In this document: one piece after another, positions 27,101 to 37,830 of the stretch
Position numbering within the stretch: position 1 is the first letter of the stretch
Layout of the letters: each line of letters starts with the position of its first letter
Assembly (NCBI GenBank): GCA_009885945.1
Contig: VFJR01000109.1
Location: 1-45,745, forward strand
DNA: 45,745 nt
Direction: 5' to 3'
From: Anaerolineaceae bacterium
GTDB taxonomy: Bacteria > Chloroflexota > Anaerolineae > Anaerolineales > Villigracilaceae
Notes under the pieces: model-generated
Told to the model about the DNA's origin: nothing
The model's database searches: none
Seen by the model: the letters and a program-made list of their open reading frames with translations, nothing else
Program-made: the position numbers and the translations under genes

Positions 27101-28438
27101 TTAGAGCGAAATCAGCGCGGGTTGATGCAGTAGTTGTGCTTGCATTGACCAAGGTCCTGTCCAGGTAATGGTAACGGGCAGGACTTTCCCTTTGAGATCG
27201 TCATTTGATTCAACGAAAACCAGTTTGTTGGTGGGAGTGCGTCCGCGCCAACGATCTTTGACTTTATCTTCAAATAACACTTCAACAATTTCGCCTAAAT
27301 ATTTCTTATTGATCTCTGCCACGATTTGCTCTTGCAGGTCATCGAGCATGTGCAGGCGGCGAAGCTTATCTTCTTCTGGGACGTTATCCTCCATGCGACG
27401 AGTGGCGACGGTACCCTCTCTCAGCGAGTAACGCGCCAAATGGACAACATCCAATTTGAGGTCAGAGAGGACGCGGTGTGTTTCCATGAATTGTTCTTCG
27501 GTTTCGCCGGGAAATCCAACGATGATATCTGTGGCGATGGAGCAATTCGGAATCTGTGCGCGGATTTTTGCAACAAGGTCACGATATTGCTGTTGAGTGT
27601 ATCCGCGCTTCATGTTTAATAAAACTTCATCATCACCGGCTTGAATAGGAAGTTCAATGTGCGGCATGATGCGCGGCAGTTCGGCGATGGCTTGGATGAG
27701 ATCATCATCAAAATAATTGGGATGCGAAGTTAAGAAGCGAACACGCTCAATACCTTCTACTTCATGCAAGACACGCAAGAGCGCGGCAAGATTGGGACCG
27801 TCCGGAATATCTTTGCCATAGCGATCTACAATTTGACCGAGCAATGTAATTTCTTTAACGCCCTGACGTGCAAGCGAACGAACTTCGCTGACAATATCGC
27901 CCACAGGACGCGAACGCTCACCGCCGCGCTTGGAAGGGATGATACAAAACGTGCAGGCATGCGAACAACCATACACAATGGGCACATGCGCGCTGACGAG
28001 TTTGCCCTGCTCTGCAATTGGCAGAATCAGTTCTTCGTCCATCATTAAGAAGCGGCGCGTAGTTTCTGAATCTTCGAGAGACTGCACTTCGCCTTGCGTG
28101 AGATGCGAAATCAATGGACCAGGGTCAGAGGGCGGAGAGAAGACATCCACAAACGGAAGGCGGGCACGCAATTTTTCTGCGCCGCGCACACCGACCATGC
28201 AACCCATGACGTTGATAACAAGATTAGGATTCTTCTTCTTAAGCGGCGCGAGTGACGTAATGCGTCCCATGGCTTTATCTTCTGCTGATTGACGCACGAC
28301 ACAGGTATTTAAAACAATAACATCGGCTTCTTCGATGGTTTCGGTTAGGATATAGCCGAGGTGCTCAAGCGACGAACCGACGCGTTGCGAGTCGGCGACG
28401 TTCATTTGACAGCCTTCGGTCCAGATATGGTATTTCAT
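27101..28438 (-). CDS. miaB: tRNA-2-methylthio-N6-dimethylallyladenosine synthase
   Basis: Radical-SAM methylthiotransferase that converts i6A37 to ms2i6A37 in tRNAs reading UNN codons. The N-terminal domain has the three auxiliary-cluster cysteines C10 (EGCQMN), C46 (LNTCVV) and C80 (MGCMV). The radical-SAM motif is C158-x3-C162-x2-C165 (GCSHACTFCIIP), and the C-terminal TRAM domain starts near residue 375. MiaB fits better than MtaB or RimO because of the GCQMN start and overall length of 445. A TATAAT box lies only ten bases before ATG and no ribosome-binding site is seen, so the mRNA may be nearly leaderless. Confidence 0.93.
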   Translation of the reverse strand: MKYHIWTEGCQMNVADSQRVGSSLEHLGYILTETIEEADVIVLNTCVVRQSAEDKAMGRITSLAPLKKKNPNLVINVMGCMVGVRGAEKLRARLPFVDVFSPPSDPGPLISHLTQGEVQSLEDSETTRRFLMMDEELILPIAEQGKLVSAHVPIVYGCSHACTFCIIPSKRGGERSRPVGDIVSEVRSLARQGVKEITLLGQIVDRYGKDIPDGPNLAALLRVLHEVEGIERVRFLTSHPNYFDDDLIQAIAELPRIMPHIELPIQAGDDEVLLNMKRGYTQQQYRDLVAKIRAQIPNCSIATDIIVGFPGETEEQFMETHRVLSDLKLDVVHLARYSLREGTVATRRMEDNVPEEDKLRRLHMLDDLQEQIVAEINKKYLGEIVEVLFEDKVKDRWRGRTPTNKLVFVESNDDLKGKVLPVTITWTGPWSMQAQLLHQPALISL

Positions 28439-28494: not shown

Positions 28495-28520
28495 AAACGA
28501 AAACCGCCAAGAGTGGCGGC
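28495..28520 (-). terminator. Terminator of the first pilin-like gene
   Basis: On the minus strand, CCGCCA and TGGCGG close a four-base loop and are followed by TTTTCGTTTTT. The plus-strand flank GGCGGCTTGAAA is identical to that of the terminator of the second pilin gene, at 29231-29239. Confidence 0.75.
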
Positions 28521-28551
28521 TTGAAAAGTAAAATATGATTTGATTTATAAA

Positions 28552-28926
28552 CTATGGTGGATAAGCATCATCCAACTGACTGCAACTTGCATTTTCTATC
28601 TTTCCATAACCAGCAGCTATTGCCTCAGGATTAGCGTATGCATCAAGGGGGTCAAGAACGACCACCCATGAACCTTCTAAATTTTGATATTGACTAATTC
28701 CTCCACCACCTGCACGACTAGTGCCGCAATATGCTGCAAGAGCCTGCCTCATGGTAGCTTGACCAACGATGCCCCCGCCAAGTGAAGCAGCAACACTGCT
28801 CATTTTTTCACTTGCGTTCGTACCAACGACGGAAACAGCAACAATTACAACAATAGCGATTAAAGCAAGAATTAACGCGTATTCCACCATGCCCTGACCC
28901 TCCTGTTTCTTTCTGTGTAAATTCAA
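28552..28926 (-). CDS. Flp-type pilin-like protein with extended C-terminal domain (copy 1)
   Basis: Probable type IVb (Flp/Tad) prepilin. A short basic leader (MNLHRKKQEG) is followed by the prepilin-peptidase motif and helix QGMVEYALILALIAIVVIV, with Glu at +5 and Tyr at +6 after cleavage behind the Gly. Normal Flp pilins stop soon after the helix; this protein (124 residues) continues for about 85 residues, with a Cys in AAYCG and another in NASCSQL that could form a disulfide. I start at TTG 28926: it aligns with the ATG of copy 2 and has GGGAG eight bases upstream, while the ATG at 28941 has no ribosome-binding site. The unit has its own promoter and terminator. No tad assembly genes are in the window. 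Confidence 0.8.
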   Translation of the reverse strand: MNLHRKKQEGQGMVEYALILALIAIVVIVAVSVVGTNASEKMSSVAASLGGGIVGQATMRQALAAYCGTSRAGGGGISQYQNLEGSWVVVLDPLDAYANPEAIAAGYGKIENASCSQLDDAYPP

Positions 28927-28972
28927 TATGAAAGCTCCCATTAATGTTTTTTGAAATTATTTTGAATAAGTA

Positions 28973-29001
28973 TGTATATACCCCTCATATCTAATTGTCA
29001 A
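28973..29001 (-). promoter_or_regulatory. Promoter of the first pilin-like gene
   Basis: Minus strand: TTGACA (29001-28996), a 17-base spacer and TATACA (28978-28973). The spacer ATTAGATATGAGGGGTA closely resembles that of the copy 2 promoter. Confidence 0.8.
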
Positions 29002-29096
29002 TCAAATAACCCTTTAAAGTAGAAAACTGTACAGAGTTGTATGGTATGCATCCATCAACGGCTTTGTTTATCATTTTTTTCGATATTGCCAATTAC

Positions 29097-29185
29097 TAAC
29101 TGACCTTACGCAAAAAATCATCTTTTCACTGCTGATGCGCTCTTACGCCATCTCAGCCCTGACGTAAACGTCAGGGCTGAGATGG
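29097..29185. repeat. Palindromic element between the pilin-like genes
   Basis: Begins with TAACTGACCTTACGCA (from 29097), nearly the same as the left end of the 26949-27049 element. It contains a perfect 18-base inverted repeat, CCATCTCAGCCCTGACGT and its complement (29148-29185), around AA. No second terminal arm is found nearby, so it may be a one-ended or decayed copy. Together with the flanking promoter and terminator this accounts for the 28942-29297 gap. Confidence 0.55.
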
Positions 29186-29210
29186 GATTTGAGATTCTGG
29201 GTTTGGGTAT

Positions 29211-29236
29211 AAAAAAGCCGCCGGGGACGGCGGCTT
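29211..29236 (-). terminator. Terminator of the second pilin-like gene
   Basis: On the minus strand AAGCCGCC and GGCGGCTT close a six-base loop and are followed by T6. It lies about 60 bases after the stop codon of the gene at 29298-29639. Confidence 0.85.
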
Positions 29237-29297
29237 GAAACCTATAAATTATGATGGACAAAACTATAAAATGGTTCAGGATATATGTAGGGAAACG

Positions 29298-29639
29298 CTA
29301 ACGGCAATCCGTATTGGACACATTATAACCTGCGGCTATGAGATCAGATCTTGGCTCTCCATTAACCCTAAAAGCAACTATATATCCGTCGGAGCCAGAA
29401 TATAGGTCTATATTTTGGTCAACGCCCGGGTTAGCTGCACAAAATGCATCACGAGCCTCACCCATCGTTGGATAACTGACTGGACTGCCGCTAAGCGAAG
29501 CGGCGACACTGCTCATTTTTTCACTTGCGTTCTGCCCTACAACCGAAACTGCCACAATCACCACCACAGCAATCAGCGCTAGAATCAACGCGTACTCCAC
29601 CATGCCCTGACCTGATTGCTTATTTTTCTCTATATTCAT
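29298..29639 (-). CDS. Flp-type pilin-like protein with extended C-terminal domain (copy 2)
   Basis: Paralogue of the adjacent copy 1. Leader MNIEKNKQSG is followed by QGMVEYALILALIAVVVIVA, with Glu and Tyr at +5 and +6 after the predicted cleavage. The helix and the following NASEKMSSVAASL are nearly identical to copy 1. The C-terminal part differs but keeps anchors: a Thr-Met before the first Cys (AFCA versus AYCG) and IAAGY before the second Cys. AGGAGC lies seven bases upstream of ATG. At 113 residues it exceeds a usual Flp pilin. It probably belongs to a Tad-like fibre or a pseudopilin set; assembly genes are elsewhere. Confidence 0.8.
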   Translation of the reverse strand: MNIEKNKQSGQGMVEYALILALIAVVVIVAVSVVGQNASEKMSSVAASLSGSPVSYPTMGEARDAFCAANPGVDQNIDLYSGSDGYIVAFRVNGEPRSDLIAAGYNVSNTDCR

Positions 29640-29679
29640 AGCAAAAGCTCCTATTAATATTTTTATAAAATTTTAAACG

Positions 29680-29708
29680 CTTATACATCCCCTATATTTT
29701 ATTGTCAA
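29680..29708 (-). promoter_or_regulatory. Promoter of the second pilin-like gene
   Basis: Minus strand: TTGACA (29708-29703), a 17-base spacer ATAAAATATAGGGGATG, then TATAAG (29685-29680). The spacer shares the ATAT-AGGGG pattern with copy 1, showing that the promoter was duplicated with the gene. Confidence 0.8.
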
Positions 29709-29814: not shown

Positions 29815-29864
29815 AAACAAGAAGCAGGTACACAATGATTCACCTGTGTACCTGCTTCTTGTTT
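29815..29864 (-). terminator. Terminator of the polysaccharide operon
   Basis: Twenty-base perfect arms (starting AAACAAGAAGCAGGTACACA on the plus strand) flank a ten-base loop. On the minus strand the stem ends in CTTCTTGTTT and is followed by GTTAATTTTTG. It lies 29 bases after the stop codon of the last operon gene. Confidence 0.75.
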
Positions 29865-29892: not shown

Positions 29893-30903
29893 CTACCCCT
29901 CCAACTTGCCCTCTTTAAACAACTCCTCAAACGGAGCCACAAACTTCTTGATTCCTTCCATATCCAGCCATTCTGTATTGTTATCGCTGGAATAACGAAA
30001 GCCATCTGGTAATGTCTTGCCCTTATCCTTCCATGAGTAACCAAACCAAGTTGCCTCGGCGGGCTGAACTACGAACATAGTTTCAAGCTCAATCGTATTG
30101 CGCGCTTCATCTTCCGAGATCATCAACTCATGTAGTTTTTCACCGGGACGAATGCCAATAACGTTAATTTGCGCTTCGGGGGCAATTGCCTTGGCAAGGT
30201 CAATCACTTTTGTGCTGGGAATCTTCGGCACAAATACTTCGCCGCCTTCCATCTGTTCAATACAGTTGATCACGAATCTCACGCCTTGATCCAGCGACAG
30301 CCAAAAGCGCGTCATTCTATCGTCGGTGATGGTGATCTTGCCGCTTGAACGTTGCTTTAAGAAGAGAGGCACCACCGAACCGCGTGAGCCAACTACGTTT
30401 CCATAACGAACGCACGAATAGCGAGTAGATGTTCCAGCGGCGTAGGCGTTGCTTTGAATGGTCAACTTCTCGGCGGCAAGTTTCGTCGCGCCATAAAGAT
30501 TCGCAGGACTAACTGCTTTATCGGTACTGACGGTTAATACTTTTTTCACGCCCGCATCCAGCGCCGCCTCCACCACATTGCCAGTGCCGTTGATGTTGGT
30601 CTTGATCGCTTCCATCGGGTTATATTCACAGGCAGGCACTTGCTTCAACGCGGCGGCATGTACCACAATATCCACACCATGCATGGCGCGCACCAAACGC
30701 TCGCGGTCACGCACATCGCCAATAAAATAACGCAAGCGCGGATCGTTATATCCGCCCACTTGCATTTCATGCTGTTTCAACTCATCACGGCTAAAAATGA
30801 TGATCTTCTTTGGTTGTTTTTCTTCCAGCAAGATTTTTGTAAATTTCTTACCAAAAGAACCTGTGCCGCCTGTTATTAGTACAACTTGATTTTTCCAGTC
30901 CAT
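29893..30903 (-). CDS. UDP-N-acetylglucosamine 4,6-dehydratase (PseB-like)
   Basis: Extended short-chain dehydrogenase acting on UDP-GlcNAc to give a 4-keto-6-deoxy sugar, an entry step to pseudaminic acid or related amino sugars. Visible: NAD-binding GGTGSFGKKF (residues 12-21), FSRDELKQHEM, the HAAALKQVP loop, and the active-site stretch STDKAVSPANLYGATKLAAEK, all close to the PseB/FlaA1 cytosolic type. Length 336 is normal; there are no membrane helices, unlike CapD/WbpM. GGAG lies seven bases before ATG. It is the last gene of the operon. Partner aminotransferase genes are absent here, so the final sugar is unknown. Confidence 0.85.
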   Translation of the reverse strand: MDWKNQVVLITGGTGSFGKKFTKILLEEKQPKKIIIFSRDELKQHEMQVGGYNDPRLRYFIGDVRDRERLVRAMHGVDIVVHAAALKQVPACEYNPMEAIKTNINGTGNVVEAALDAGVKKVLTVSTDKAVSPANLYGATKLAAEKLTIQSNAYAAGTSTRYSCVRYGNVVGSRGSVVPLFLKQRSSGKITITDDRMTRFWLSLDQGVRFVINCIEQMEGGEVFVPKIPSTKVIDLAKAIAPEAQINVIGIRPGEKLHELMISEDEARNTIELETMFVVQPAEATWFGYSWKDKGKTLPDGFRYSSDNNTEWLDMEGIKKFVAPFEELFKEGKLEG

Positions 30904-30910
30904 AGGATCT

Positions 30911-30977
30911 CCGATATTTGATAATTCGATATTCGGAATTCGGCACCTACAATCAAGTATCGAATAACGAATATCGT
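30911..30977. repeat. ATTCGA-type inverted repeat in the polysaccharide operon
   Basis: The left part CGATATTTGATAATTCGATA and the right part read on the opposite strand (CGATATTCGTTATTCGATAC) match at most positions with one gap. It fills the 82-base gap between the methyltransferase and dehydratase genes and carries the same motif as the two nuo-operon elements. Confidence 0.6.
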
Positions 30978-30985
30978 TCTTGTTT

Positions 30986-31810
30986 TTATTTCCTAATCAC
31001 AATCAACGGATACTGCCCATTCTCGCCAAAGAAGCGCGGAAAGGTTTCTTCCATCCAAAAGACAAAACGCAAATACGCTTTGCCGCCCAATTGCGGGCGC
31101 ACAAACCAACGCATAAAGCGCGGACTTAAACTACGCCAGGGGTAAATCTCTAACTTAATCACATTTTTCAATTCACTCTTCAACCAACGCGGCGTCATCT
31201 TTTCAACGAAGGTGCCAGCCTCATCATTTTCCGCTGACCAATTTTTCTTTTTCTTGGCAGAACGTCCCGTCAATGCGCGCGCAATGCCAATAAAAGGTTC
31301 CGCTATTTTCATTAACAGTGGATTATGCCAGCCATTGATGATCGCACCAGACCGATTCGACTTCATTGTACGAGTTAATTCCATATACGCGCGTTTGTGT
31401 TCACTCAATGGCAAATGATGAATCGTATGCATAGAGACAACGCCGTCAAAAGAATCAGACTTGAAGGGTAAGTTAGCAATATCCGCAACCACAAACAGCC
31501 CTTTATCACCAAGCCGTGTACGCGCCTCTTTCAGCGCCGTGATAGAAATATCCAAACACAGACGATATTTATATCCCTCCGAATAAGTTAAATACTCGGG
31601 CCATTGCACGGGACCAGAACCTGCATCCAGCAAAATATCACCAGCGGGCGCAAGATATTTCTTCACGCGCATATGACATTTATGTACATACTCACGTGAA
31701 ACTGGGCGCAGATCTTCATAACGCGCGTTCTGATACAGCCCATCTCCAATTTGCGACCAGCCGATCTGATCATAAAATTCACGAACTTGTTGTTTTGTAT
31801 TTTCTGCCAT
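30986..31810 (-). CDS. SAM-dependent methyltransferase
   Basis: Class I methyltransferase of 274 residues. The SAM-binding site is visible as ILLDAGSGPVQW (motif I, about 60-71), followed by CLDISITAL (acidic end of strand 2), VVADIANLPFKSDSFDGVVSMHTIHHL (motifs II-III), typical of the Methyltransf_11 group. The C-terminal 100 residues are basic and aromatic-rich. Its place in a polysaccharide operon suggests it methylates a sugar or a lipid-linked glycan, perhaps capping the chain; this is inference. TGGAAT stands upstream of ATG. Confidence 0.8.
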   Translation of the reverse strand: MAENTKQQVREFYDQIGWSQIGDGLYQNARYEDLRPVSREYVHKCHMRVKKYLAPAGDILLDAGSGPVQWPEYLTYSEGYKYRLCLDISITALKEARTRLGDKGLFVVADIANLPFKSDSFDGVVSMHTIHHLPLSEHKRAYMELTRTMKSNRSGAIINGWHNPLLMKIAEPFIGIARALTGRSAKKKKNWSAENDEAGTFVEKMTPRWLKSELKNVIKLEIYPWRSLSPRFMRWFVRPQLGGKAYLRFVFWMEETFPRFFGENGQYPLIVIRK

Positions 31811-31832
31811 ATTTATTCCATCAATTAAATTT

Positions 31833-31884
31833 CTTTCATCTTTCTTCTTTTGTCTATCAAATTAAGAAAGATGAAAGAAGAAAG
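31833..31884. repeat. Pyrimidine/purine inverted repeat between transferase genes
   Basis: Arms CTTTCATCTTTCTTCTTT (31833-31850) and AAAGATGAAAGAAGAAAG (31867-31884) are reverse complements at 16 of 18 positions, around a 16-base centre. It occupies most of the gap between the capsule-type gene and the methyltransferase gene. Confidence 0.6.
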
Positions 31885-31888
31885 GTGT

Positions 31889-33463
31889 TTATGCTTTCCA
31901 GTCAATTCTTTTACCCGCCAAATATTCAAACGATTTTCCAAATTCTTTCTGTCCATCTTTTGAAAGCACATCACTCAACGGCGAGACTTCCATGTCTTTC
32001 CAAAAGTGCATCAGCCTCCATGGGAATGGAAGCGGGTATTCAAAAAAGAATCGGTACGCATATTCCCAGGCAGTTTCAATTTGCGTTTTGCTTAAAACTG
32101 TTTTACTCTGCAACGAGCTTTGAATCAACGAGAAATATTCAGCCCAAGTTTGCGGGTCAAATGTAAAGCCGCGTTTGCGATAATGCGTCTGCCCGCACAC
32201 GATCACGGGAATTCCATTCATCGCCATTTCCAATCCTGTCGTAGTGGTATACACCAAACCCAAATTTGCAATTTCCATTAAATCATAAGTATTCACTTTT
32301 TCAAGAGGTTCGATCAAATGAATATTTTCTGGAATTTCTGCCAACGCACCTTTTACTACACTGGACATGGAAGTGCCCTTCATCAGCCTTTCGCCAGGGT
32401 GAATCCGAATCACCAACTGCGCCTGAGGCTGGTCTGCAAAAAACTGAACCGTTTTCTTAATCCAAGCCGCCATGCTCGGCGCAAAAATATTTCTTCCCAA
32501 AGTCAAACTATCGCCCAGTACATTTGTGGTTAACAAAACAATCGGACGTTTTTTATCCAGCTTCAATTCCTTGCGTAATGTTTCGCCGCCTTTGGTTTCC
32601 ACGTCCTGCCATTTGCGCGCAGATTTGCCAAAAGACTTGCCGCCCATTCTAGCCGATTCAAGTTCCTCAACGAGAACACGTTCATCTTTCAATAATTTAT
32701 GTCCGCCGCGCGCTTTCCACAAAGAGTCTGTATTTTGGCGCATCACTTCATCATTTTGCGCGATCCACACTTGCTCGCGGCTGTCGTTGAATTCATAAGT
32801 TACAGTGTGCAGGTCAAGATAACGCGCGGCGCGATAGACTGCGCCAAGCTCTGTAATAGTGCCATTAGGAATCAACACCGTATCTGGCTTGAGTTCCTGC
32901 ATCAGCGTCAACGCGGCGCGGGCGGCAAAGTCATTGCGTTTAAATCGTAATTTATACAACGCAGAGTTTGTATCCACATCCTCGATTTGGTCAGTGTACT
33001 GCGCGTCGTAGATAGAGATAAGGGAAATGCCCGGGCGTAGATCGGCTGGCAAAATGGGAGCAGGCTCAACGTCAAGTAATGAAGCGTAATGAACAAGCCC
33101 TTTGAGCGGGGATAAAACTCGACGTGTGTATAAATCCTGGCGGCGAGAATCAAACTTGTTGATGTCTTTACGCCAATCATGATATGGAAGATAGGCAATG
33201 GTGACATCATGCCCTAGTGCGCGCAATGTCAGCCCAATGATGGCGGCTTGCTCAACCCAATAATGAAGCGTGGCGAAGAGTAAAAGTTTTTTGCCTGGCT
33301 TTGCTTTTTCTATGTATTGGCGCGCCTGTTCAATAGCAAGCGGCAAATGCTTTTCAAGCTGACTTAAGTTATAACGCGTGTTGGGACGACCTTTGCGAAG
33401 CGAATCGTAAAGGTCTGCAGAGTAGGGGATGTTACCGAGAATGGTTTTGAGGGAGTGTTTCAT
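31889..33463 (-). CDS. Capsule-type polysaccharide transferase-like protein
   Basis: Protein of about 524 residues, probably a GT-B-fold glycosyltransferase. The C-terminal half has a pattern I associate with the capsule polysaccharide biosynthesis family (KpsC/KpsS-like): RIHPGERL, then TTTTGLEMAMNGIPVIVCG followed by HYRKRGFTFDP, a probable nucleotide-sugar site. The N-terminal half has LLFATLHYWVEQAAIIGLTL and a histidine-containing loop, typical of the acceptor domain. Start uncertain: ATG 33463 or GTG 33478, neither with a clear ribosome-binding site. It lies between the ABC exporter genes and the methyltransferase, so it most likely extends or modifies the exported glycan. Confidence 0.65.
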   Translation of the reverse strand: MKHSLKTILGNIPYSADLYDSLRKGRPNTRYNLSQLEKHLPLAIEQARQYIEKAKPGKKLLLFATLHYWVEQAAIIGLTLRALGHDVTIAYLPYHDWRKDINKFDSRRQDLYTRRVLSPLKGLVHYASLLDVEPAPILPADLRPGISLISIYDAQYTDQIEDVDTNSALYKLRFKRNDFAARAALTLMQELKPDTVLIPNGTITELGAVYRAARYLDLHTVTYEFNDSREQVWIAQNDEVMRQNTDSLWKARGGHKLLKDERVLVEELESARMGGKSFGKSARKWQDVETKGGETLRKELKLDKKRPIVLLTTNVLGDSLTLGRNIFAPSMAAWIKKTVQFFADQPQAQLVIRIHPGERLMKGTSMSSVVKGALAEIPENIHLIEPLEKVNTYDLMEIANLGLVYTTTTGLEMAMNGIPVIVCGQTHYRKRGFTFDPQTWAEYFSLIQSSLQSKTVLSKTQIETAWEYAYRFFFEYPLPFPWRLMHFWKDMEVSPLSDVLSKDGQKEFGKSFEYLAGKRIDWKA

Positions 33464-33473
33464 TTGGAAATAC

Positions 33474-33533
33474 GCCACTGAGTCACAGAGACACGGAGAA
33501 AATATTTTCTCTGAGACTCTGCGTCTCTGTGGC
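33474..33533. repeat. 60-base imperfect palindrome between wzt and the transferase gene
   Basis: The two 30-base arms (left GCCACTGAGTCACAGAGACA, continuing CGGAGAAAAT) are reverse complements at 24 of 30 positions with no gap. The element runs from the start region of one gene to the stop codon of the other. CACAGAGAC-type strings are familiar to me as dispersed intergenic repeats. Confidence 0.8.
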
Positions 33534-34822
33534 TAATCTAGTTTATCGATTGTCCAATTAAGCCGCGGACGAACAGGACCCTGACGAAGCTCTGGCCATT
33601 GTGTGCCGGGTGCACCAGAGATATCTACGTTAAATGAAATTGCATTTTCGTCCATGAAATAACGTTTGACACCAAAGGAACTGGCATTGATGCCAAGATA
33701 ATAGCGACCTTCATTAAAGAAATCGGCGGGGATTTCACAGCGGCTAATGTAACGCCCAGCTGTGCGCGCACCAAATTGCTCAAATTGTTTCGCGTCATCG
33801 GTATCGAAGGCAGTGAAAACATATTCACCGCGCATCGTGTTGAGATAGATGCCCACACGCAAGCCTGTAACAGCTTCATCGAGTTGATATTCCCATTCAA
33901 AAGTTGCAGGCTCAGTGGATCGGACAGTATCAATAATTTTTCCGTTTTTATCTTTGATGCGCAATGCAATCGGCGTGAATGGCGCGCTATTGGGGGGCAG
34001 ATCTTCTTTTCCCCATATACGTTCGCCTGTTTCTGCTTGACCCGAGGAGAGATAAAAATCAACAGCTTCCGGCGTGGGTGCGCGTTTGATCAGTTGTCCT
34101 TTTTTAAGTACGATGGCTTCATTGGTCAGGCGCAATATTGCGGACATGTTATGGCTAACGAATAAAACAGTGCGTCCTTGCTGGGCAACATCGTTCATTT
34201 TGCCAAGACACTTGCGTTGAAATTCTGCATCGCCCACTGCCAGGACTTCATCTACAACCAGAATCTCAGGCTCAAGATGGGCGGCAACTGCAAACGCAAG
34301 CCGCAAATACATGCCCGATGAATAACGTTTGACGGGCGTGTCAATAAACTGACCAACTTCAGAGAACTCAACCATTTCGTCAAACTTGCTGTCAATTTCG
34401 GCGCGTTTCATTCCTAAAATAGCGCCGTTCATATAAATGTTTTCACGCCCTGATAGTTCAGGATGAAAACCCGTTCCCACTTCCAGCAGTGAGCCGACTC
34501 TGCCGCGAACGCTGACTGTGCCTTTGGTGGGTTCTGTGACGCGCGAAAGGATTTTTAGCAAGGTGCTTTTGCCAGCGCCGTTTCGCCCGACAATACCCAG
34601 CACTTTCCCTTCTTCTAAATCGAAGGAGACATCATTGAGCGCCAAAAAAAAGTTTTTGTTTTCGCGTCTAGCAGATTTACCCGCCAGCGCCTTTGCCAAA
34701 CGCACTGGCGCGTAGACTGTGTCCATTAATACATCACGCAGCATGTTATAGCGAAATTTTGATTCTGCCGCGCCGATTTGATATTCTTTGCTGATATTTT
34801 TTACACTGATAGCTGTTGTCAT
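33533..34822 (-). CDS. wzt: Polysaccharide ABC exporter ATPase with C-terminal glycan-binding domain
   Basis: ATPase of the Wzm/Wzt (TagH) class that exports undecaprenyl-linked polysaccharide. Walker A GRNGAGKST (residues 80-88), signature YSSGMYLRLAFA and Walker B EILVVDEVLAVGD are intact, and the N-terminal insertion (about 20-55) is typical of the class. After about residue 275 a beta-rich domain follows that matches the Wzt C-terminal carbohydrate-binding domain in position and size (total 429 residues). ATG 34822 is preferred over a TTG 24 bases upstream that lies within repeat sequence. It pairs with the permease gene at 34929-35774, separated by a repeat element. Confidence 0.88.
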   Translation of the reverse strand: MTTAISVKNISKEYQIGAAESKFRYNMLRDVLMDTVYAPVRLAKALAGKSARRENKNFFLALNDVSFDLEEGKVLGIVGRNGAGKSTLLKILSRVTEPTKGTVSVRGRVGSLLEVGTGFHPELSGRENIYMNGAILGMKRAEIDSKFDEMVEFSEVGQFIDTPVKRYSSGMYLRLAFAVAAHLEPEILVVDEVLAVGDAEFQRKCLGKMNDVAQQGRTVLFVSHNMSAILRLTNEAIVLKKGQLIKRAPTPEAVDFYLSSGQAETGERIWGKEDLPPNSAPFTPIALRIKDKNGKIIDTVRSTEPATFEWEYQLDEAVTGLRVGIYLNTMRGEYVFTAFDTDDAKQFEQFGARTAGRYISRCEIPADFFNEGRYYLGINASSFGVKRYFMDENAISFNVDISGAPGTQWPELRQGPVRPRLNWTIDKLD

Positions 34823-34923
34823 AAGGGTTGAAGGGTTGAAAGTCAAAAGTCAAAAGTCAAAGGTCAAAGGTCAAAGGTCGAAGGTCTTGAGGTTTGCGAC
34901 CTGTGACCTGTAACCTTCGACCT
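34823..34923. repeat. AAGGTC-type repeat block between wzm and wzt
   Basis: Tandem seven-base units of the type AAAGTCA/AAGGTCA (about 34836-34880) lead into an inverted repeat: AGGTCGAAGGT (34875-34885) and ACCTTCGACCT (34913-34923), with GACCTGTGACCTG inside. The arm AAGGTCGAAGGTTACAGGTC parallels that of the nuoL-nuoM palindrome. It fills the gap and appears to replace a normal ribosome-binding site for wzt. Confidence 0.75.
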
Positions 34924-34928
34924 ATAAT

Positions 34929-35774
34929 TTAGATTGTATCCGCGAAGGTCTTTTCCATACTGCGGAAGTAGAAGAGACCTGAAATCAGAATCAAAATTGA
35001 AATAGAGGCAGAAACCCAAAACGTCAGATCAGGCCCATTGCCGGAGCCGAGCAATGCCCAGCGAAAACCATTGACTACACCTGCCATTGGATTCAATGAG
35101 TAGGCAATTTGCCATTTTTCAGAAACCACAGAGGAAGAATAGGCAACGGGTGTAATGAACAGCCAAAATTGAGTCAGAAACGGCAGGGCTTGATTCACAT
35201 CACGGTATCTGACGTTAATCGCTGAAAGCCACAAAGCAACGCCCATTGCAGTGATGATCGCCAAAAGCAGAAAGAGCGGCAAAGTCCAAATGATATTCCA
35301 AGCGGGCGTCACTTGATAGTAAAACATTAAGGCAATCAAAATAACAAAGGCGATTAAAAAATCAACCAAGCCAGCAAAGACAGACGCCATCGGCAAGATG
35401 AGGCGCGGGAAATAAATTTTGCTGACCATATTGTGATGTGCTACCAGCGAACGGCTGCCCTGATTTAACGCGGTAACGAAAAGTCCCCAAGGTAATAACG
35501 CCGTGAAGGCAAAGACGGGGTAGGGAATTCCGTCAGTGGGTAATTTTGCAACTTTGCCAAACAGGAATGTAAAAACCAGCATGGTCATTATTGGTTGAAT
35601 GACAGCCCAAGCCATGCCTAGCATCGTTTGCTTGTATTTCACCTTTACATCGCGCCAGACCATAAAGAAGACAAGCTCACGATATGTCCACAAGTCTTTT
35701 AAATTAAGCGCCGCAAGACCTGTGGAAGGCTTGATGTAAACAGTAGTGGGTTCTTGTTTTGTAAGTTCAGTCAT
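34929..35774 (-). CDS. wzm: Polysaccharide ABC exporter permease
   Basis: Membrane subunit of the polysaccharide exporter: 281 residues, six predicted helices, ABC-2 fold. The N-terminal LWTYRELVFFMVWRDVKVKYKQ and the following TMLGMAWAVIQPIMTMLVF are characteristic of Wzm/TagG permeases. I start at ATG 35774 with GGAA about nine bases upstream; the longest frame begins 150 bases earlier inside the preceding gene, where the peptide is not membrane-like. It forms the transporter with the ATPase encoded downstream. Confidence 0.88.
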   Translation of the reverse strand: MTELTKQEPTTVYIKPSTGLAALNLKDLWTYRELVFFMVWRDVKVKYKQTMLGMAWAVIQPIMTMLVFTFLFGKVAKLPTDGIPYPVFAFTALLPWGLFVTALNQGSRSLVAHHNMVSKIYFPRLILPMASVFAGLVDFLIAFVILIALMFYYQVTPAWNIIWTLPLFLLLAIITAMGVALWLSAINVRYRDVNQALPFLTQFWLFITPVAYSSSVVSEKWQIAYSLNPMAGVVNGFRWALLGSGNGPDLTFWVSASISILILISGLFYFRSMEKTFADTI

Positions 35775-35787
35775 TGTTTCGTTTCCA

Positions 35788-35821
35788 CGTTTGCAAGTTG
35801 GAACGTTCCAACCTGCAAACG
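35788..35821. repeat. 34-base palindrome between the fucose synthase gene and wzm
   Basis: Arms CGTTTGCAAGTTGGAAC and GTTCCAACCTGCAAACG match at 16 of 17 positions with no loop. It lies just downstream of the upstream gene's stop codon, within the polysaccharide operon, and is unrelated in sequence to the other elements. Confidence 0.75.
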
Positions 35822-35823
35822 TT

Positions 35824-36795
35824 CTAATCGATTTTTTCTCGATTTGCCTTGAACCAATCAATCGTCCTGCGCATACCATCTTCAAAAGAGACTTGCGCAC
35901 TCCAGTTGAATAATTCTTTTGCACGGCTCACGTCCAAACCGCGGCGAGGTTGACCGTTAGGCTTATCGGTTTGCCAAGTGAGCTTGCCTTCAAAGCCTGT
36001 CATTTTGACGATCATTTCAGTGAGGTCTTTAATCGAGATTTCATATCCTGAGCCAAGATTAACGGGCAAATCGCCGTTGTATTTTTCTGCCGCAGAGACG
36101 ATGCCATCGGCGGCATCTTCCACATATAAGAACTCGCGTGTAGGAGAACCATCGCCCCAAACTAGCAATTCATGTTCATTGCGCGATTGTGCTTCCACAG
36201 CTTTACGAATCAAAGCTGGGATAACGTGCGATGTTTGTAAATTAAAATTATCGCGGGGTCCATAAAGATTTACAGGCAAAAGATAAATGGCGTTGAAACC
36301 ATATTGCTGGCGATAGGTCTGCGCCTGCACCAGCATCATCTTTTTAGCAAGACCATAAGGCGCATTGGTTTCTTCAGGATAACCATCCCAAATGGCATCT
36401 TCTTTGAATGGAACAGGTGTAAATTTCGGATAAGCGCAGACTGTGCCTGTGGCAACAAATTTCCCAACACCGTGCTTATAAGCTTGATGCATCAATTCCA
36501 CACCCATGATCATGTTATCGTAAAAAAATTCAGCGGGATGTTCGCGGTTGGCGCCAATCCCGCCTACGTTCGCGGCTAGGTGGATGATGACTACATTTTT
36601 TGGGTCAACATTTTTTAATGAATCGACATACAAACGTTCAATGGCTTCGCGGCTGGTAAGGTCATAATCTTTTTTGCGCGGAATAAAAATATCACTTGCG
36701 CCGCGCGATTTTAATTTTTCAACAACAAATGATCCTAAAAATCCGCCGCCGCCCGTGACGATCACGCGTTTATTTTGCCAAAAGGTTTCAGCCAT
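35824..36795 (-). CDS. fcl: GDP-L-fucose synthase-like epimerase/reductase
   Basis: Extended SDR enzyme expected to convert GDP-4-keto-6-deoxymannose to GDP-L-fucose with NADPH. Visible: NADP site [11 protein letters not shown] (residues 14-24), [19 protein letters not shown] as in the GMER family, [18 protein letters not shown], and the catalytic Tyr-Lys in [11 protein letters not shown]; near the C-terminus [18 protein letters not shown] matches the substrate-binding region. Length 323 is typical. The companion GDP-mannose 4,6-dehydratase is not in the window, so a related GDP-sugar product remains possible. Confidence 0.85.
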
Positions 36796-36819
36796 AAAAA
36801 AACTCCTTGTTAATAAAGC

Positions 36820-37830
36820 TTACTGCACAATGAATTGCGCGTTACGATAACTTTCAGATAAAGGATTACGAATAAAGCCAGATTTTAAAGCAAACAAAAC
36901 TTCACGGATACCATCGTCTACAGTTTTGGTAGTTTCATATCCTAGTATTTTTTTTGCTTTGGCAAACGAAACCGTAATGTCACGCATATCACCGCCAAAG
37001 GTTAAGTCTTTGTGCTCAACAGTTGTTTCAGGCATGCGCTTTAAAACCAACTGCACAATTTCATCTTTTGTGTAATTGCCATTATCTGTTCCAAGGTTAA
37101 ACACTTGTCCGCGCACCTTTGCATCATCTGCTTGCAGCCCTATCATTATGCCGCGCACCACATCAAGGATATGCACAAAAGAACGTGAATAACCGCGTTG
37201 ATAAATGATCAATTCCCGTTTTGTAAATGCTTCCAATACAAATTGATTAATGATCAAATCAAAACGGATGCGAGGAGAGATTCCGTACAGTGTCGCAAAA
37301 CGAAAGACCAGTGGCGAAACAGAAGATTCTTTTTGCGCGAGTAAAAACTCTTCTGACGCGATCTTTGTTTCAGCATATAAAGATTGGGGATTAAGCGGAG
37401 ATTCTTCTGTAACAGGCTTGCCATCAGTAGATAAACCATAATTGCTATAGGTGGATGCAAACACGAATCGTTCCACGCCTAGATCGGATGCCTGCCCATA
37501 AACAGTTTTTGTGGCTTCAACGTTATAGCGCCACGCGGCTTGCTTGCCAACAGCCTGACATGCAGGGAAGCCAACAATTGCAGCAAGATGAACAACAGCA
37601 TCTGGCTTCTGCCATTCTTTTTTAAGAGCATCTTTTACAGCACGCGGCTCAGTGACATCAGACTTAACAAAGTGAAAATTAGGATGATGAAAAAAACCCA
37701 TCAGCGGTTCGCCGCCAAAGAGTAAGCTGTCTACGACAGTAACACGATAGTTGGCGCGTAACAGCTCCGAGGTCAGAAGAGAGCCGATGTAACCCGCACC
37801 GCCAGTGATTAGCACGTGCTTTTCTGTCAT
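36820..37830 (-). CDS. NAD-dependent sugar-nucleotide epimerase/dehydratase
   Basis: Extended short-chain dehydrogenase of 336 residues. The N-terminal Rossmann motif GGAGYIGS (residues 10-17) and the acidic strand VTVVDSLLFGG bind NAD; VVHLAAIVG and the catalytic SLYAETKIASEEF (Tyr-x3-Lys) are clear. Its start overlaps the regulator stop by four bases (ATGA). The substrate is not evident; the sequence resembles the broad group of nucleoside-diphosphate-sugar epimerases in surface-glycan loci rather than a classical GalE. Confidence 0.8.
   Translation of the reverse strand: MTEKHVLITGGAGYIGSLLTSELLRANYRVTVVDSLLFGGEPLMGFFHHPNFHFVKSDVTEPRAVKDALKKEWQKPDAVVHLAAIVGFPACQAVGKQAAWRYNVEATKTVYGQASDLGVERFVFASTYSNYGLSTDGKPVTEESPLNPQSLYAETKIASEEFLLAQKESSVSPLVFRFATLYGISPRIRFDLIINQFVLEAFTKRELIIYQRGYSRSFVHILDVVRGIMIGLQADDAKVRGQVFNLGTDNGNYTKDEIVQLVLKRMPETTVEHKDLTFGGDMRDITVSFAKAKKILGYETTKTVDDGIREVLFALKSGFIRNPLSESYRNAQFIVQ

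Follow-up and report, generated by a model that had tools for sequence, protein, structure and literature searches.

Twin flp genes with diverged cysteine-bearing heads beside miaB in an Anaerolineaceae genome

Two adjacent flp genes upstream of miaB

The DNA analysed here, called the window below, is the 45,745-nt contig VFJR01000109.1 of the Anaerolineaceae assembly GCA_009885945.1. Its minus strand carries two successive flp genes, B and then A, flanked by a polysaccharide-synthesis gene before B and by miaB after A. The features of the region are as follows.

27101..28438, minus strand: miaB, a conserved neighbour used as the marker of the locus (TIGR01574; 402 bits, cut-off 355)
28501..28522, minus strand: terminator after A (AAGCCGCC-loop-GGCGG and a T run)
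28552..28926, minus strand: flp-head gene A, 124 aa, consisting of TTG start, leader, helix and head
28555..28779, minus strand: head of A, 75 residues, with mature Cys57 and Cys105; predicted to have the element order of B plus a last helix, at low confidence
28934..28939, minus strand: ribosome-binding site of A (GGGAGC), from the sequence
28973..29001, minus strand: promoter of A, TTGACA-17-TATACA, from the sequence and a degenerate pattern
29215..29236, minus strand: terminator after B (AAGCCGCC-loop-GGCGG and a T run)
29298..29639, minus strand: flp-head gene B, 113 aa, consisting of leader MNIEKNKQSG, helix and head
29301..29492, minus strand: head of B, 64 residues, with mature Cys57 and Cys102; predicted helix-strand-strand-helix-strand
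29647..29652, minus strand: ribosome-binding site of B (AGGAGC), from the sequence
29680..29708, minus strand: promoter of B, TTGACA-17-TATAAG, from the sequence and a degenerate pattern

The twin flp feature is well supported and its reality was confirmed. The initial annotation had described two adjacent Flp-type prepilin genes with near-identical helices. Both whole proteins pass the Pfam Flp_Fap cut-off (PF04964; 36.5 and 37.2 bits against 32.2), and 37 of the mature residues 1-39 are identical; without its leader, mature B scores 31.5 bits, which is below the same cut-off. A prepilin processing motif has Gly at the cut site and Glu at +5, and both residues are present in EG/QGMVEY of A and SG/QGMVEY of B, where the slash marks the cut. 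The start of gene A is most likely the TTG at 28926, because this codon lines up with the ATG of B, and the ATG at 28941 given in the open reading frame list runs into the GGGAGC ribosome-binding site. The mature chains are then 114 (A) and 103 (B) residues long, and at the sequence level the assignment of both as Flp prepilins is supported.

Each gene has a TTGACA-17-TATA promoter, as originally proposed, and promoter, leader and terminator are indeed common to the two units; the GGGG block of the promoter spacers is shifted by one base between A and B. A generic sigma-70 scan, which requires the -10 box to end in T, listed neither promoter; this miss was not counted against the sites. By the same scan, promoter-like sites were no more frequent in the region than in shuffles (3 versus 4.0). 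A degenerate pattern derived from the two promoters matched just those two sites in the window and none of 100 shuffles had two matches, a result that is descriptive only because the pattern was drawn from the same two sites.

Sequence and predicted structure of the heads

Two cysteines and the motif IAAGY are common to the heads of A and B. Alignment of the two heads by Smith-Waterman gave a z of 6.1, with 1 of 200 shuffles equally good, and they are probably related, weakly. When it was checked whether the C-terminal domain is an already catalogued Flp variant, the heads matched no Pfam or NCBIfam family above cut-off, and NCBIfam returned only sub-threshold matches for the two proteins.

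Structure models made from two-row alignments had mean pLDDT values of 69 and 58. The modelled head of B is a small alpha-beta unit with pLDDT of about 70-84 in most blocks, preceded by a stretch below 50, and the modelled head of A is mostly below 70. The canonical Tad pilin is short and has no globular domain, whereas an alpha-beta head is predicted here with modest confidence. The best PDB sequence matches of the twins, 8u1k_A ('PilA') and 8u2b_A ('Flp family type IVb pilin'), with E-values of 7e-4 and 0.006, are Flp/Fap pilins with the same prepilin leader, cut site and single hydrophobic helix; their chains have 45 residues and are headless, while A and B are headed.

Several candidate relatives of the heads were discarded. 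Solved structures resembling the B model in Foldseek (best E 0.51) were indistinct from background, and so was the C-terminal domain of YpbH in VIA-align (best Z 3.0, rmsd 3.1, 54 residues aligned). Cytochrome c554, the best PDB profile match of the heads (E 0.0086), was judged to be due to chance. The B head found no match among phages.

Divergence of the twins and a third flp gene

By the Nei-Gojobori method the helix segments of A and B differ with dN 0.06 and dS 1.54 (dN/dS about 0.04), and the heads with dN 0.69 and dS 1.28 (dN/dS about 0.5, a weak value as dS is near saturation). This bears out the earlier observation that the C-terminal regions have diverged except for the spaced cysteines and IAAGY. 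The near-saturated dS and the loose head alignment preclude a comparison of the ages of helix and head, but the two parts are clearly under different constraint. DNA similarity between the two units extends from 106-112 nt 5' of the mature start to about codon 41, the end of the helix.

A third flp gene lies on contig C135, where it is cut off by the contig end; its leader and the start of its helix are of the ordinary short type. The start of this contig (L016:1-1940) carries genes for a NarL-type response regulator and a histidine kinase, then the flp gene, and the contig ends within a 26-nt stretch identical to gene A, so that the end is probably an assembly break at a repeat. This third gene may be the one for the main subunit.

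Over 62 nt of helix DNA, A and the C135 gene have 58 matches, A and B 50, and the C135 gene and B 47. Since the helix of A is closer to the C135 gene than to B, helix segments may have been exchanged between paralogs. Whole-unit duplication, as initially proposed, agrees with the common promoter, leader and terminator but is an incomplete account of the affinity of the A helix to C135. The likeliest history, judged on this short 62-nt stretch, is unit duplication with later exchange of a helix segment between paralogs.

Tad machinery of the genome

The assembly to which the window belongs comprises 3.43 Mb in 209 contigs and is 95.7% complete. The initial annotation had noticed no tad genes next to the twins and had proposed a genome-wide search for Tad machinery and prepilin peptidase. 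No match to TadA, TadB/C, prepilin peptidase or TadE was found on the window's contig, and tad genes on the twins' own contig were rejected. The genome does contain a Tad pilus gene set, split between contigs C175 and C193. C175 encodes TadA and two proteins of the TadB/C type, adjoined by CpaB/RcpC and by a receiver-plus-ParA-type ATPase like TadZ/CpaE (the TadZ assignment being by domain content only); genes for a prepilin peptidase and TadE are adjacent at the end of C193. The only flp genes found by the Flp_Fap search of the assembly were the twins and the C135 fragment, with none on C175.

An Anaerolineae pilus cluster is given as pilA-CpaB-CpaE-CpaF-TadB-TadC in an excerpt of one report (PMC4877987). 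Its machinery genes are the same as those of C175, but according to this excerpt the cluster includes pilA, whereas here the headed flp genes lie at miaB and none was found on C175.

Headed flp genes beside miaB in the family

Genomes of the same family were searched for relatives, which were recognised by a helix profile built in this analysis. A flp-like match was present in 142 of 152 genomes, mostly with several matches per matching genome (1 to 9 among the matches listed). The family loci contain at least 56 distinct short Flp frames of 37-57 mature residues without cysteine, often in tandem, and at least 16 extended frames; these two numbers give no ratio, as the loci were partly picked for long frames. 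A scan of genome contigs yielded 15 loci, 13 of which were read (L030 and L032 were left out), and in these the mature Flp had 40-57 residues, save for a chance 14-residue motif match in L034. Genome G010, the first such case noticed, has two headed flp genes 5' of miaB, as in the window, with a run of N separating the two. Because extended, cysteine-bearing flp genes recurred beside miaB, miaB was searched throughout the family.

A miaB match was obtained in 132 of 152 genomes and 129 regions were read; the other three (G148, G084 and G080) were short of upstream sequence. The miaB start was readable in 128 of the 129 (the exception is G112), with at least 600 nt upstream in 118. The best 30 regions were read to about 1.5 kb 5' of miaB and the rest up to 3 kb or as far as the contig reached; a second miaB copy in G105 is outside the count. 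Three genomes were not counted as head-bearing, namely G102 (a 32-aa frame with 1 cysteine), G081 (38 aa) and G133 (a short flp 2.7 kb away). The frame of G102 (L120) is a headed flp frame beside miaB that is likely broken and retains the promoter form.

On this basis, 22 of 128 genomes, the window's included, have one or two headed flp genes 5' of miaB and in the same orientation, and the remaining 106 have none in the stretch read. The 22 genomes are spread over 6 of 26 genera, and five of them (G000, G145, G117, G111 and G010) have twin loci. The number of cysteines is even (2, 4 or 8) in all 27 headed miaB-linked proteins; two of these proteins have a cysteine in the helix, and cysteine makes up 3.9% of the heads. 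The 27 proteins are not 27 independent cases of cysteine parity, since the heads fall into 10, 14 or 15 groups (see below). An origin of the heads as a read-through artefact was rejected on the grounds of their recurrence and even cysteine numbers. The extended domain, which had been called unusual for Flp pilins, is not peculiar to this pair, as 22 of 128 genomes have headed flp genes at this place, and their heads are often unrelated.

Searched against Pfam without their leaders, ten headed pilins matched no family above cut-off; none reached that of Flp_Fap, and those of G118 and G142 had no match. Three headed relatives found no match in NCBIfam. Extended flp genes on contigs other than those with miaB numbered three (L036/L083, L064 and L045), one of them without cysteine. 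The frame at L045:1474-2970, on a non-miaB contig, joins a Flp helix to a repeat region of about 440 residues that has no cysteine.

Elsewhere in the order, in families other than this one, 96 genomes matched and 57 of them were read; 56 had a readable start and 53 at least 600 nt. None of these 53 had a headed flp at miaB, as judged with a helix profile built from the present family, which a divergent flp could escape, and one genome has a short flp 2.3 kb from miaB.

A receiver-domain frame lies immediately 5' of the miaB-linked flp in 7 of the 22 genomes (L067, L106, L114, L116, L124, L134 and L143), and such a frame in G010 matches Response_reg of Pfam. Together with the two regulators preceding the C135 flp gene, these frames suggest that expression is under signal control. 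The window pair, unlike those seven, has no adjoining regulator gene. The promoter form of the window is also found 5' of the far gene in G111 and of the truncated frame in G102.

Types of heads

The sequence of G136 equals that of G135 and was left out of the head comparison, although kept among the 27 proteins. The resulting 26 heads, compared by Smith-Waterman against shuffles with single linkage, fall into 10 groups at z 6, 14 at z 8 and 15 at z 9. The type YGAN...FGDP...K-C occurs in eight genomes including G136; other types are NNC...C[ST]W, HGNWHATW and GYATGPGYGWDC, and there are singletons. The same head type is found in different genomes and different heads are found on similar helices.

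The two genes of each of the five twin loci are similar in DNA up to mature codon 37-55, a limit at the end of the helix or slightly beyond it. The twins of G145 are 89.5% identical over 219 nt of helix and linker DNA, beyond which no DNA similarity was found, and one of their heads matches the head of G132. The near gene of G010 has an FGDP-type head, which gave no match in plasmids, and in PDB this gene had weak matches of the Flp helix only.

The head of the far gene of G010 matched that of window B in BLASTP with an E-value of 6e-4 for that single comparison, and in hhalign with P 0.009 but a probability of 4%. A profile of the G010 and G118 heads retrieved those two and two weak matches from the family, the window genome being absent at E 0.01. 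Kinship of the window heads to heads of other genomes is suggestive and goes no further, because the BLASTP and hhalign links are weak and the profile search missed it. Matches to the window heads in 25 of 396 genomes of the class (E up to 0.1, own genome included) were all dismissed as relatives, as the E-values are per genome and about 40 matches were expected by chance.

Proposed function and alternative explanations

We consider it fairly probable (about 0.7) that A and B are Tad pilin subunits with disulfide-held, exchangeable heads, encoded at a conserved locus. The type IV leader peptidase of C193 would cut after Gly10 (G/QGMVEY), and the TadA/TadB/TadC machine of C175 would pack the conserved helix into a thin filament. 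The head, of 64 or 75 residues and presumably closed by one disulfide, would then be shown on the outside of the filament; the part that varies is the head and not the helix. The miaB locus most likely serves to diversify the pilus surface, for adhesion, cell-cell contact, carbohydrate binding or evasion of pilus-binding phages; the heads probably serve adhesion or recognition. A tentative extension, which we would not yet favour over its contrary, is that the miaB locus is a head-exchange site, where recombination in the helix segment joins new heads and twins hold alternative heads. Such repeated refitting of the pilus surface within one bacterial family would be like that of variable type IVa pilins or phage tail tips.

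Whether the headed proteins build the shaft or decorate it is the point on which two of the alternatives differ. In one of them, to which we give a little less than an even chance, the twins are minor or tip pilins and the short-type Flp of C135 makes the shaft, which A and B decorate, cap or prime. The ordinary leader and helix start of the C135 gene, and the two regulator genes ahead of it (NarL-type response regulator, histidine kinase), fit this explanation, but the gene is truncated at the contig end. A precedent is provided by the Kil pili of Myxococcus, which according to an excerpt of their description (PMC12075869) have tip complexes that can be exchanged and have predicted disulfides, and Flp adapters as separate proteins; the Kil tips described there, however, each comprise three proteins, and a scan of ten genes around the twins, at 23.3-37.8 kb, found nothing pilin-like. 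Two separate consensus-like promoters would not suggest low expression either. The opposite arrangement, in which the headed proteins are the main shaft subunits, the filament is wholly coated with heads and the pair forms a mixed or switchable coat, seems to us rather unlikely. It is in keeping with the twins being the sole complete flp genes from the Flp_Fap search and with each having its own promoter and terminator; against it stand the incomplete third flp gene and the family genomes, mostly with several flp matches (1 to 9, among the matches listed) and with headless short frames.

That the twins are membrane-anchored proteins outside any pilus, with the Flp-like helix as a signal anchor and the head acting in the envelope, would explain why their contig lacks tad genes. 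We regard this as improbable, since Tad genes are present in the genome and the cleavage motif and helix are kept (37/39 residues, dN/dS about 0.04) as expected of a packed subunit. Neutral decay, with the heads as functionless remnants, is very improbable: the low mutual similarity of most heads and the G102 frame of only 32 mature residues would suit it, but cysteine numbers are even in 27 of 27 proteins, head groups are common to several genomes, and the dN/dS of the twin heads is about 0.5, weak evidence with dS near saturation.

The preferred reading, of Tad subunits with exchangeable heads, has parallels in known systems. Type IVa pilins have a conserved helix and a cysteine-bounded variable C-terminal region. 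They are alike in principle, with a variable disulfide-held head on a conserved helix, but belong to another family, as Flp_Fap is the match of the twins and their heads and those of the relatives divide into 10 to 15 groups by sequence. The Kil pilus, as far as the excerpt describes it, likewise combines a common Tad shaft with exchangeable, disulfide-bearing displayed parts; these are separate minor-pilin complexes (PMC12075869), whereas in the headed Flp proteins the part that varies and the helix form one chain. Such a fusion of variable heads with the Flp helix, found at a single conserved locus, looks new within the full-text literature searched, subscription papers aside.

In a table of a review, seen in excerpt, the Tad pilins of Caulobacter are listed as being without the globular domain that other type IV pilins have, and the adhesion module is entered as undefined (PMC7616799). 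The locus described here is a direct candidate for what Tad pili present. With its wide range of head types, all at one site and on helices of the same kind, it can serve as a test bed; its interest lies in making testable what Tad pili present. If the heads are swapped by recombination, this would be surface variation for a pilus type not known to vary so in the literature searched.

Neighbourhood of the twin genes

A palindrome with exact 16-base arms (CATCTCAGCCCTGACG) and 4 bases between them sits at 29149-29184, in the stretch that separates the B terminator from the A promoter; elsewhere in the window it recurs as one single arm at 1540, with 3 mismatches. After the polysaccharide gene, a hairpin at 29816-29863 with 20 pairs (the last being G-T), a loop of 8 and a T-rich tail may insulate the twins from that gene. 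The region 29893-37830 is occupied by surface polysaccharide genes, which encode epimerases, a capsule-type synthesis protein and an ABC exporter with a Wzt C-terminal domain.
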